Assembly: GCA_003249935.1 (NCBI GenBank)
Contig: QKHT01000038.1
Coordinates: forward strand, 1 to 51,118
Source: Bacteroidota bacterium
GTDB taxonomy: Bacteria > Bacteroidota > Bacteroidia > Bacteroidales > UBA5342
Direction of reading: 5' to 3'
Length of the DNA stretch: 51,118 nt
Program-made: the position numbers and the translations under genes
Notes under the pieces: model-generated
Databases searched by the model: none
What the model was told of the DNA's origin: nothing
What the model saw: the letters and a program-made list of their open reading frames with translations, nothing else
In this document: positions 19,410-51,118 of the stretch, piece after piece
Layout of the letters: every line of letters starts with the position of its first letter
How positions within the stretch are numbered: position 1 is the stretch's first letter

Positions 19410-21845
19410 ATGGCTAATTCAGAACACAATCTTTCAATACAGGATAGCTTTGTTCAGGTTGATGGAGCAAATAGTAAAATAGATATTCGGAAATGGCTTT
19501 ATAAAATGCTCTTTAACTGGCATTTGTTTGTAATTGTTTTGTTTTTAGCAATGATTGGCGCATTTATTGTCAATAAAACTATATTACCACAGTACAAGGT
19601 TCGAGCAAGTGTTTTAATAAAAGAGACCGAATCTGGTGGGTCATTATCTGCCGGAGGGGTACCGGATTTGATGAGTGGTTTATTCGGACAGTCTCGGAAT
19701 GTGGCCAACCAATTTGCTATTCTATCGTCTTATAAGCTCATTAATCGCGCAGCAAAGAAACTTCCGCTTGAGGTGGCTTATGAAAAATTGACATTGTTTA
19801 AAAATATACCTTATTATAAAGATTCACCAATAAAAGTTGTTTTTGATACCTTGAACGCTGAATCAAGTGATCTTTTGTTCCGTTTTGAATACCTGGAAGG
19901 CAATAAGTTTGAGATAAGTTCCAAAGGCAATAAAAAAATAGATTCTTTTGAGAAGGAAGGTATATTTGGTCAGAAATTGACTTTTGCGTGGGGTGCCCTC
20001 ACTATTTTTAAACAGGATTTGTATTGGGATGATGAAGATATTAAGCCGGTATCTTTTAGGTATATGTCTCCTTTGGATTTGTATAATCAGTTTTCGCAAA
20101 TAATGAAGCTCGATTATATAATGGAAGACGCAACCATCGTTGAGATAAATATTGTAAGTAATAATCCCGCAAGAGATCAGGAATTTTTGCTGGCACTCAC
20201 AAATGAATTTCTGAATGAAAATCTTGAACGTAAGAATATTGAGGCTATTAGAACCATTGATTTTATTGATAATCAGTTAAAGCAATTGTCCGATTCTCTT
20301 ACTTTTGCCGAAAACAGTCTTGAAAATTTTCGCTCCACCAATTTAGTTTTGAACTTGGATGCACAAGCACAGATTTTATTGGAACAAATGACAGAGATGG
20401 ATAAATCGAAATCCATTTTAAAGGTTCAGGCAAAATATTATGAATATTTACTCGATTATGTTCAAAAAGGCGATTTGGATAAAGAGATAATATCACCGGT
20501 AACTGTGGGTGTGGTTGAACCAGCTATTGTAAAGTATACCGCAGATTTGTCGGAATTGCAGATGCGACGGAAATCTATCGGGTCAAATAATGCGATTAGT
20601 GATGTTATTGAAACAAAGCTCAGTTTTTTAAGACAAGGTTTGCATCAAACGGTTCAAAATGTGTTAAATTCCACAAATATTCAAATTGCAGACATCGACA
20701 AAAGAATTGGACAATTTGAATCGAAGGTTGAATTGTTACCCGGTAATGAAAAAAAATTACTCAATTTGCAACGACGGTTTAAAGTTACCGATGAGTATTA
20801 CACCTTTCTGTTGCAAAAGAAGAGCGAAGCACAAATTATCAAAGCCTCAAGCACACCTGACAATATTATCTTAGATGATGCCATGGTGATGGAAAGGACC
20901 AATGCCAAGACATTGAAAATTAATTATCTTCTTGCTATATTTTTAGGCTTGGCTATTCCGTTCGGTTATTTAATTGTAATTGACTATATTGGCACCACGA
21001 TACAGTCCAAAGAAGACATTGAATCGGTAACAAATCTACCGGTATTGGGTATGGTTCCACGAAAGGAAAAGTTTGATCTTATACCGGTATTAGAAGCACC
21101 AAAATCTACTTTTTCCGAAGGTTTCAGGTCTTTAAGAACCAGACTGGAATTTATGGCAAAAGGCCAGCAGAGTTTTGCAACCCTTATAACCAGTTGCTTG
21201 CCAGGTGAAGGAAAAACATTTGTTTCTTTAAATCTGTCGGCTGTTTTTGGGTTGGCAGACAAAAAGACTATTCTGTTGGGATTTGATTTACGTAAACCCA
21301 AGGTGGCTTCTTATTTAAAAGTAAAGGCAGAAAAGGGTTTGAGTAATTACTTAATTGGTGCGGCTACACTCGATGAAATTGTTGTTAGACCTAATGGTTT
21401 AAATTTCGATATTATATTCTCCGGGCCTATTCCACCGAATCCGGGCGAATTGTTGGGCTCGGATCGAATGACAGACTTATTTCGCGAATTGCGCTTAAAA
21501 TACGACCTAATAATTATCGATTCAGCTCCTGTTGGCCTTGTAAACGATACCTTCTTGTTGGCTAAACATGTGGATGTTAATGTATTTGTTGTTCGCCATA
21601 AAAGAACAGACAAAGAATTATTACGTGATAATTTAGCCGCAGCACATGATAATAATATGGAAAATATTGCAATTGCTGTAAACGATGTCTTTTTTAAAAC
21701 GAATATGTCTAATCCTTTTAACTGGTTTGGTCGAACCGGATTGAAATACGGTTCGGGCTATGGTGGTTATTATGGCTATGGTTATAATTACGGTTATGGC
21801 TATGGTTTTGATATTGGCAAAAAAAATGGTTATCTGGACGATTAA
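19410..21845 (+). CDS. wzc: Wzc-like tyrosine autokinase / polysaccharide co-polymerase
   Basis: This inner-membrane protein controls chain length and export with Wza. A Wzz domain with a membrane segment near residue 35-55 is followed by coiled-coil and GNVR regions (residues ~270-480), a second membrane segment near 505-525, and a cytoplasmic BY-kinase domain. That domain shows Walker A SCLPGEGKT (about 594-602), Walker A' LLGFDLRKP (about 620) and Walker B LIIIDSAPVG (about 700). The last 33 residues contain ten tyrosines in a Gly-Tyr-rich tail, the autophosphorylation cluster. At 811 residues, kinase and Wzz are fused as in proteobacterial Wzc. It sits between the Wza-like gene and the NusG paralogue. 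Confidence 0.93.
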   Translation: MANSEHNLSIQDSFVQVDGANSKIDIRKWLYKMLFNWHLFVIVLFLAMIGAFIVNKTILPQYKVRASVLIKETESGGSLSAGGVPDLMSGLFGQSRNVANQFAILSSYKLINRAAKKLPLEVAYEKLTLFKNIPYYKDSPIKVVFDTLNAESSDLLFRFEYLEGNKFEISSKGNKKIDSFEKEGIFGQKLTFAWGALTIFKQDLYWDDEDIKPVSFRYMSPLDLYNQFSQIMKLDYIMEDATIVEINIVSNNPARDQEFLLALTNEFLNENLERKNIEAIRTIDFIDNQLKQLSDSLTFAENSLENFRSTNLVLNLDAQAQILLEQMTEMDKSKSILKVQAKYYEYLLDYVQKGDLDKEIISPVTVGVVEPAIVKYTADLSELQMRRKSIGSNNAISDVIETKLSFLRQGLHQTVQNVLNSTNIQIADIDKRIGQFESKVELLPGNEKKLLNLQRRFKVTDEYYTFLLQKKSEAQIIKASSTPDNIILDDAMVMERTNAKTLKINYLLAIFLGLAIPFGYLIVIDYIGTTIQSKEDIESVTNLPVLGMVPRKEKFDLIPVLEAPKSTFSEGFRSLRTRLEFMAKGQQSFATLITSCLPGEGKTFVSLNLSAVFGLADKKTILLGFDLRKPKVASYLKVKAEKGLSNYLIGAATLDEIVVRPNGLNFDIIFSGPIPPNPGELLGSDRMTDLFRELRLKYDLIIIDSAPVGLVNDTFLLAKHVDVNVFVVRHKRTDKELLRDNLAAAHDNNMENIAIAVNDVFFKTNMSNPFNWFGRTGLKYGSGYGGYYGYGYNYGYGYGFDIGKKNGYLDD

Positions 21846-49269: not shown

Positions 49270-50115
49270 ATGAAAGCAATTCTCGAAACTATAGAATCAA
49301 ATGCGCATACCATTACGTCGTATCATTACCAACAGAATACTTTTGGTGCGCCATGGCATTTTCATCCGCAATTCGAATTGGTTTATATTGTTTCGGGCCA
49401 GGGTACCCGATATGTTGGTAATAGCATCGAACTGTTCGAGAAGGGCGATTTTGTGCTTATTGCAGGCAATGTGCCGCATTGTTGGAAAAATAGTTCCGAT
49501 TACGTTGGTGCTTGTCACTCTATTGTGGTTCAATGGATGCCAAATGCGATAAAATCGCTACCGGAGTTTAATGTATTCGATGGATTAGTTGCAAAAGCAA
49601 AACTTGGAATACATTTTTCTCCTGATGATCCGGTTCATTACGAAACGTTAATGAATAATGTGGTCGTTAATGATCCACTTTTAAGGGTTCTCAATTTTCT
49701 AATGCTTTTTTCGGAACTCAAAAATGAAGTAAACTACCGGCTTTTGTGCGATAGCGAACAAGAATATAAATTAAGTGTCGTAAATAACGACCGACTGAAT
49801 AAAGTGTATCTGTTTATCGAGAATCATTTTGATGAAAAGGTGACTCTTAAGGATATTGCATCGGAAGTGAATATGGGAAGTGAATCTTTTAGTCGTTTTT
49901 TTAGTGAGTCAATGAATAAACCGTTCTTTTCGTTTTTGAACGAGTTCAGAATAAAAAAGGCATGTAAAATGCTTTCGGAAACCAATCGGTCGGTTTCCGA
50001 AATTTGCTATAGTTGTGGTTTCGAAAGCCTGCCTTTCTTTCATAAACAGTTCAAAAAGTATAAAGATACCACGCCATTCAGGTACCGCACTTCATTCTTA
50101 AAAGCGATGACTTAA
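49270..50115 (+). CDS. AraC-family transcriptional regulator with cupin sensor
   Basis: A 281-residue regulator. The N-terminal cupin-like domain (WHFHPQFELVYIVSGQGTRY, ELFEKGDFVLIAGNVPHCW) senses a ligand. The C-terminal AraC DNA-binding domain has both helix-turn-helix units: VTLKDIASEVNMGSESFSRF and SVSEICYSCGFESLPFFHKQ. It is transcribed away from the PhyH-isomerase operon and probably controls it. No operator repeats are clearly visible in the gap. Confidence 0.93.
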   Translation: MKAILETIESNAHTITSYHYQQNTFGAPWHFHPQFELVYIVSGQGTRYVGNSIELFEKGDFVLIAGNVPHCWKNSSDYVGACHSIVVQWMPNAIKSLPEFNVFDGLVAKAKLGIHFSPDDPVHYETLMNNVVVNDPLLRVLNFLMLFSELKNEVNYRLLCDSEQEYKLSVVNNDRLNKVYLFIENHFDEKVTLKDIASEVNMGSESFSRFFSESMNKPFFSFLNEFRIKKACKMLSETNRSVSEICYSCGFESLPFFHKQFKKYKDTTPFRYRTSFLKAMT

Positions 50116-50349: not shown

Positions 50350-50429
50350 CTACCATAATTGCACCGCTACGCGGCTCGAAGATAAAAAATAGTTCAATAC
50401 AAAGCCGCGTAGCGGCGGCATTATGGTAG
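50350..50429. repeat. Inverted repeat doublet 1 (REPIN-like)
   Basis: An inverted copy (50350-50376) and a direct copy (50403-50429) face each other across 26 nt and can form a hairpin of about 25 bp with few mismatches. Confidence 0.8.
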
Positions 50430-50608
50430 AGATATGCAATTATTTACGGTTCAAATAGCCGCATAGCGGCGGCATTATGGTAGAAGAATTAACCGAACAG
50501 ATATTTATATAGCCGCATAGCGGCGGCATTATGGTAGCATAATTTATTGTCGCAAAAAGGAATGATGCCACCGCTACGCGGCTCTGCATTTATATTGTAG
50601 CATGTTTA

Positions 50609-50688
50609 CTACCATAATTGCACCGCTACGCGGCTCGAAAGTGAAAAATCATTCGATAATCAGCCGCATAGCGGCGACAGTTTGGCAG
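50609..50688. repeat. Inverted repeat doublet 2 (REPIN-like)
   Basis: Inverted copy (50609-50635) and direct copy (50662-50688) are separated by 26 nt, as in doublet 1. Both loops start CGAA and share an AAAAAT stretch. The right arm is the CAGTTTGGCAG variant, so the outer pairing is weaker. Confidence 0.75.
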
Positions 50689-50774
50689 AAGAATTAACCG
50701 AACAGATATTTATATAGCCGCATAGCGGCGGCATTATGGTAGAGATATGCAATTATTTACGGTTCAAATAGCCG

Positions 50775-50818
50775 CATAGCGGCGACAGTTTGGTAGCATA
50801 GCGGCGACAGTTTGGTAG
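50775..50818 (+). repeat. 22-bp perfect tandem duplication inside the array
   Basis: The segment CATAGCGGCGACAGTTTGG plus TAG occurs twice back to back (50775-50796 and 50797-50818). This explains the one 76-bp interval (54 + 22) and points to replication slippage. Confidence 0.9.
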
Positions 50819-50980
50819 AAGAATTAACCGAACAGATGTTTATATAGCCGCATAGCGGCGCCATTATGGTAGATGAATTAAATGAGCAGTTGTTTATTTA
50901 GCCGCATAGCGGCGGCAGTATGGTAGAAGAATTAACCGAACAGATATTTATATAGCCGCGTAGCGGCGGCAGTATGGTAG

Positions 50981-51118
50981 AATGATTGTATGAATATTAA
51001 CACAAAAATATTTGTATGCGGTAACGAGGCCACATTTTTAGTGGAGTATCTCACCATGACGGGTATTTATGTTTTTAGTATATTTTATTGAATAATGTTA
51101 AAACTAAAAATAGAACAG
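50981..51118. other. Region right of the repeat array
   Basis: A 33-codon frame starts at ATG 50990 and ends at 51091; it has no recognised family. A small inverted pair CCAC/GTGG surrounds ATTTTTA near 51030-51044. No gene is supported. Confidence 0.35.

Follow-up and report, generated by a model that had tools for sequence, protein, structure and literature searches.

The window, a stretch of 51,118 nucleotides analysed at its full length, makes up the whole of contig C52 in an assembly of 4.27 Mb and 326 contigs that is 97.5% complete. Close to its end lies an array of palindromic repeats, which starts 235 bp 3′ of the stop codon of a 281-aa gene and leaves 137 bp between its last unit and the contig end. 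Judged by eye, the C-terminal part of the 281-aa protein reads like an AraC-type regulator. Elsewhere in the window, at 21756–21803, there is a short 18-bp tandem repeat (GGCTATGGTTATAATTAC) of 2.7 copies. The gene and the parts of the array are as follows.

49270–50115, + strand: upstream gene, 281 aa
50350–50981: whole REP/BIME-like array, 12 hairpins, nine on the + strand and three on the − strand
50350–50376, − strand: inverted REP unit, hairpin 50363–50375, tail GCAATTATGGTAG running leftward
50403–50429, + strand: REP unit, hairpin GCCGCGTAGCGGC followed by GGCATTATGGTAG
50430–50456, + strand: spacer B (AGATATGCAATTATTTACGGTTCAAAT)
50457–50483, + strand: REP unit
50484–50510, + strand: spacer A (AAGAATTAACCGAACAGATATTTATAT)
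50511–50537, + strand: REP unit, closing the first direct block
50562–50583, − strand: inverted unit, hairpin 50570–50582, tail without GGTAG; terminal hairpin of an inverted dimer
50609–50635, − strand: inverted REP unit, hairpin 50622–50634 followed by GCAATTATGGTAG; head-to-head with the unit at 50662
50662–50688, + strand: REP unit with an altered tail (GACAGTTTGGCAG)
50689–50715, + strand: spacer A
50716–50742, + strand: REP unit
50743–50769, + strand: spacer B
50770–50796, + strand: REP unit
50774–50817, + strand: 22-bp perfect tandem duplication (two copies of GCATAGCGGCGACAGTTTGGTA)
50819–50845, + strand: spacer A, one change
50846–50872, + strand: REP unit
50873–50899, + strand: spacer C, diverged from A
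50900–50926, + strand: REP unit
50927–50953, + strand: spacer A
50954–50980, + strand: REP unit, the final one

All 12 hairpins have intact or near-intact stems. Each unit consists of a GCCGC-RTA-GCGGC hairpin, with a 5-bp stem and a 3-nt loop, followed by GNCATTATGGTAG and a spacer of ~27 nt; the 13-nt tail, present on one strand of the unit, ends in GGTAG, and its GTAG starts 9 nt past the hairpin. A preliminary description of this DNA had reported an alternation of 27-bp spacers and a palindromic repeat of the same length (AGCCGCRTAGCGGCGNCAKTWTGGTAG), and we confirmed this alternation within 50350–50981. The same description gave the array a strict 54-bp period over ~630 bp and a single inverted module, neither of which survived closer measurement. 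The nine direct units form three blocks of three (starting at 50403, 50457, and 50511; 50662, 50716, and 50770; and 50846, 50900, and 50954), with a step of exactly 54 bp within each block but steps of 151 and 76 bp between blocks. Three inverted copies, rather than one inverted module, and the 22-bp duplication interrupt the direct blocks, and it is the duplication that breaks the final register. The inserted copy of this duplication can be placed with both of its ends at GGTAG, although the junction is ambiguous because the duplication is tandem.

Three kinds of spacer are present, in the copy numbers originally given: spacer A, beginning AAGAATTAACCG, occurs four times (at 50484, 50689, 50819 with one change, and 50927), spacer B, beginning AGATATGCAATT, twice (at 50430 and 50743), and spacer C, beginning ATGAATTAAATG, once (at 50873). 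The spacer order had been given with swapped labels; with A = AAGAATT, B = AGATATG, and C = ATGAATT, it reads B, A, inverted pair, A, B, 22-bp duplication, A′, C, A. Spacer C is itself a diverged A, identical at 20 of 27 positions, and the array also contains a 130-bp higher-order repeat. The inverted unit at 50350–50376 stands head-to-head with the unit at 50403, their 35-nt arms being 86% complementary. The head-to-head modules at 50350–50429 and 50609–50688, each with a 26-nt centre, have the arrangement that defines a BIME or REPIN, in which a short conserved spacer separates two oppositely oriented REPs, often repeated in tandem; the same module occurs on contig C296 and in another genome (L088).

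A 28-bp repeat pattern matched the 4.27-Mb genome seven times, always inside the array, which is far more than chance would give. A family pattern that includes the tail matched 18 times, with eight matches inside the array and the remaining 10 spread over nine other contigs; the reversed control gave no match in either search. These dispersed copies, which the preliminary description had proposed as the check on a REP family, support the REP-like nature of the array, and a 27-bp unit with 18 matches in its own genome fits the usual notion of a REP as a 20–40-bp palindrome with many extragenic copies, even though this copy number is low relative to classical REP families. Other copies, too, are located at contig ends; contigs C127 and C242 end in the same sequence, and their copies are probably one place. 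Spacer A was found nowhere outside the array, and the composite unit may not have moved to other sites.

In a scan of named genomes, the family was present in Saprospiraceae, Prolixibacteraceae, other Bacteroidales, and a Parafilimonas MAG, and the layout of hairpin, GRCATTATGGTAG, ~24–27 nt, and second hairpin was kept across genomes. Among 149 sampled genomes of the order, by comparison, the repeat pattern occurred in its own genome and in none of the 148 others, including the one other genome sampled there from the organism's family; the distribution is patchy. Only one of 52 family copies in other genomes falls inside an ORF, though ORFs account for 76% of the DNA, and the copies adjoin unrelated genes in unidirectional, convergent, and divergent settings. 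An analysis of stem pairs in 50 rows, with the search seeds excluded, revealed compensatory changes, with alternative Watson–Crick pairs at all five positions (for example, CG, GC, and TA at pair 2 and GC, CG, and TA at pair 4). The 5′ foot of the hairpin is A-rich, with a single conserved A, and inspection by eye for IS608-style pairing between guide and cleavage sequences showed no clear complementarity between this foot and GTAG.

Near family copies on two other contigs of the genome (L035, G000:C318, 550–640; L042, G000:C114, 1920–1970), we observed another palindrome (GCCTCGGAGAGGC), whose tail (GACAGATTTGGTAG or GAAAGAATGGTAG) is similar. The first of these contigs also carries, at 369–480, two units with the same spacer, in one of which the hairpin lacks its centre and AGCC is fused to TGGTAG; this is decay by internal deletion.

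The preliminary description had raised a RAYT-type transposase as a possible source of the array, and a Y1_Tnp gene alongside dispersed copies as support for a REP family. Using the PF01797 profile and the L088 protein as queries, we obtained five matches in the array's own genome, namely four Y1 genes of nearly full length and one fragment. One of the four has a TAG inside its open frame. Such genes therefore exist, but none is flanked by the array's repeat, and none lies inside or adjoins the array. The four longer genes are divergent from one another, each is surrounded by a different palindrome family of its own, and a tree places their proteins outside the clade described below. The search of this assembly thus yielded no cognate-clade transposase; the fragment, on contig C251, is cut by the contig end and too short for the tree, and was judged by eye. 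One of these genes (L009, G000:C221, 1100–2600 and beyond) sits amid dozens of alternating palindromes (CCCCGTAGGGG, GCCCGTAGGGC, and CGCCTACGGCG) at 45–50-bp steps, and this locus is a dense REPtron with a different stem in the same genome as the array. Immediately 3′ of another (L008, G000:C74, 730–1110) are six GAGCCTACGGCTC hairpins, 65–74 bp apart, with GTAGG in the spacers.

Three other genomes (L088, L091, and L097) do have Y1 transposases flanked by the array's repeat, and it is in these genomes, not in the array's own assembly, that the REPtron arrangement of a gene flanked by the same repeat was found. In a tree of 51 Y1 proteins, the three enzymes form one clade with support of 100/100 inside the Y---Q--HH group. 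They carry DH[IV]H, WQ, and Y---Q--HH motifs in ~150 aa, as does TnpA_Y1 subclass 1.2, which also occurs in Cyanobacteria, and the proposed link to a Y1 transposase thus stands, whereas its assignment to the RAYTs, which carry Y---NP, does not. The NCBIfam IS200/IS605 transposase model passes its cut-off, whereas REP_Tyr_transpos scores far below its own; among solved structures, that of the IS608 transposase is closest in sequence. A related enzyme (L148), 60% identical to that of L088, has GCCCC-GTA-GGGGC followed by gaccttatggtag beside it.

We counted hairpins around Y1 genes under a definition set before counting (5-bp stem, at least 4 G/C, loop of 3–4), on which the cluster counts depend. 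At least three same-stem hairpins lay within ~1.5 kb at 20 of 41 Y---Q--HH loci. Such clusters were absent from all 14 ribosomal L13 loci (13 of which came from the same genome set), all 15 window segments, and all five classical IS200-type loci without the HH motif. The 2018 survey by Quentin and colleagues describes subclass 1.2 as low-copy and without IS properties, and enters 'no' for REPs (PMC6006769). The loci counted here differ from that entry in their hairpin clusters but resemble the surveyed enzymes in a DH[IV]H-like HUH motif, WQ, Y---Q--HH, a length of ~150 aa, a conserved C-terminal extension, and their occurrence in Bacteroidetes (PMC6006769).

Hairpin clusters were common in a set of 81 Y1-transposase loci from Bacteroidota, almost all of them of the Y---Q--HH type. 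The most widespread 4-mer at a fixed distance from the hairpin in this set was GTAG at +9, tied with the overlapping TAGA. It was present at 28 loci with 13 different stems, and 23 loci were left when the GCCGC group and its kin (L076, L088, L091, L097, and L148) were removed; in 300 shuffles of the downstream 40 nt, no more than seven loci had GTAG at +9 and no more than 10 had it at any one offset. This evidence is strong, although not fully independent, as the loci are related by descent. Distances between consecutive hairpins of similar stem peaked at 50–54 bp, in 29 loci. Because this spacing recurs over different stems, the array's 54-bp step is the normal spacing of the class and no accident. 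The preliminary description was right that the array is more regular than ordinary dispersed REPs, but a spacing of ~52–54 bp is common to many unrelated palindromes beside subclass-1.2 transposases, and the regular step is therefore a property of the class rather than of this array.

With canonical GTAG REPs, BIMEs, and REPINs and their RAYTs (TnpA_REP groups 2 and 3; subclasses 2.2 and 2.5), the array shares a short GC-rich palindrome, GTAG, an extragenic location, copies both dispersed and clustered and both direct and inverted, and a Y1 HUH transposase with a co-varying palindrome. The hairpin of a canonical REP, however, has GT[AG]G at its 5′ foot (PMC6006769, PMC8266576), within 0–2 nt, where the array has none; the array's GTAG is instead on the 3′ side, 9 nt beyond the hairpin, the hairpins of its family run head-to-tail every 50–54 bp, and the linked enzyme is Y---Q--HH. 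The array behaves like canonical REPs, but as both the 5′-foot GTAG and the Y---NP enzyme are absent, we file it as REP/BIME-like and not under canonical REPs. A second likeness is to IS200/IS605 elements (IS608 and ISDra2; TnpA_Y1 subclass 1.1), in that the succession of hairpin, short linker, tetranucleotide, longer linker, and hairpin resembles the junction of right and left ends in IS608 (PMC5934647). Those elements are near-identical and multi-copy, with tnpA between the hairpin ends; here there is no identical multi-copy element, and the dispersed repeats do not carry the transposase gene with them, which is itself low-copy. In the openly searchable literature, we found neither REPs reported for subclass 1.2 nor a description of hairpins followed on their 3′ side by GTAG at +9, and the link between this Bacteroidota repeat class and subclass-1.2 transposases is provisionally new.

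We read the array as a REP/BIME-like element that has expanded in tandem into a cluster, and consider it likely that such units are mobilised in trans by an IS200/IS605-like Y---Q--HH Y1 (HUH) transposase of TnpA_Y1 subclass 1.2; amplification of the array in trans by such an enzyme is probable. We infer the mobilisation itself, the position and direction of cleavage, and, for this organism, a cognate enzyme, past or present. IS608 TnpA binds subterminal hairpins on single-stranded DNA and cuts 3′ of a tetranucleotide, and its circular junction has the order right-end hairpin, cleavage site, left-end hairpin (PMC5934647). The order in the array, namely hairpin, 9 nt, GTAG, ~25 nt, and hairpin, matches this junction, and we propose GGTAG between hairpins as the site of cleavage and joining. 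By this analogy, the transposase would bind hairpins in single-stranded DNA such as the lagging-strand template, and would cut at or beside GGTAG between two hairpins, the upstream hairpin acting in the role of the IS608 right end and the downstream hairpin in that of the left end; cut units would then be joined at another GGTAG. Because the end of each unit would be the insertion target for the next, growth would be head-to-tail and could yield reused spacers and a fixed ~54-bp step, with slippage and recombination adding duplications such as the 22-bp one. Against this explanation stand the lack of a cognate transposase among those found in the assembly, the confinement of spacer A to the array, and the small number of copies in the genome.

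The serious rival for this array is growth without a transposase, in which ordinary slippage or recombination duplicated a resident REP dimer locally and in tandem, which we regard as quite possible, if on the less probable side. The 22-bp duplication and the 130-bp higher-order repeat speak for such growth, as do the confinement of spacer A and an assembly in which no cognate transposase was found, and local duplication alone could have built the array after the first units arrived. Pure slippage, however, gives no cause for a fixed distance, and in many genomes hairpins near Y1 transposases show the same 50–54-bp step and +9 GTAG although their stems are unrelated. Local duplication would also account for growth of the array and not for dispersal of the family, and it is compatible with a mobile origin of that family. 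Also compatible with a mobile origin, and not exclusive of it, is a role selected by the host, as an RNA terminator or mRNA 3′-end stabiliser of the upstream gene or as a DNA site for an architectural protein, a reading we think unlikely. The position of the array downstream of an ORF fits it, as does folding, which is much better than in shuffles both for the array as RNA (z = −10.6) and for one module as single-stranded DNA (z = −4.4), and REPs with such side roles are known (PMC3733652, PMC6006769). Yet palindromic repeats fold well whatever their function, the family copies adjoin unrelated genes in all relative orientations, and no Rfam family reached its gathering score. A known structured RNA was accordingly rejected, the Rfam matches being to eukaryotic miRNA models only, weak matches to the palindrome far below threshold.

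Two further readings concern the nature of the locus itself. That the array is an assembly artefact at the end of a metagenome contig is very improbable: it does lie near a contig end, as do other copies, and its copy number could be wrong, but point changes set its units apart in an order that does not repeat, the head-to-head module recurs on C296 and in L088, and the same spacing rule holds in three single-contig genomes (L165, L172, and L177). A CRISPR array, whether active or degenerate, has almost no likelihood at all. Short repeats regularly alternating with spacers of equal length, 27 bp each, recall one, and the genome has a cas1 gene; here, however, spacers A and B are reused, the repeats vary and run in both directions, and the genome has dispersed copies of the repeat core outside any array. 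No cas genes were found beside the array in the 9 kb examined, the cas1 contig has no repeats of the array's kind, and the viral collection held no exact match to the spacer A pattern or the repeat pattern. We therefore ruled out a CRISPR array on reused spacers, mixed orientation, unlinked cas1, and the lack of a viral match. Expansion of a composite ~54-bp unit, and not spacer acquisition, is supported, as the preliminary description had proposed. The only cas1 found (L178; G000:C89, 1536–2384) is full-length; its contig, 3,064 bp long, has no CRISPR array.

Extending mobilisation by subclass-1.2 enzymes beyond this array, we tentatively propose, with a little less than even confidence, a distinct class of '3′-GTAG REPs' that is widespread in Bacteroidota, in which hairpins with GTAG at +9 recur every 50–54 bp and would be processed by subclass-1.2 Y1 transposases. 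GTAG would then be a joint cleavage and insertion site, and arrays would grow unit by unit through single-strand transposition and not through slippage. To our knowledge, nearly all study of REP elements has been in Proteobacteria, and we know of no account of how they spread. If subclass-1.2 enzymes do mobilise 3′-GTAG REPs, they would form a bridge between IS200/IS605 insertion sequences, with which they share the Y---Q motif and a similar layout of hairpin and cleavage site, and domesticated RAYTs, and would offer a testable intermediate together with a ready set of enzyme–repeat pairs within one phylum. Such repeats would also account for CRISPR-like arrays in Bacteroidota, which CRISPR finders may misreport.

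Other loci depart from this layout. At one subclass-1.2 locus (L122), the hairpin tails end in GTAC, not GTAG, at the same distance, and the tetranucleotide may vary with the enzyme. In L061 and L064, copies of the repeat are spacerless, with a period of 25 bp (GGTAGCCGC...), so each GTAG runs into the foot of the hairpin that follows, an overlap like that of a canonical REP.
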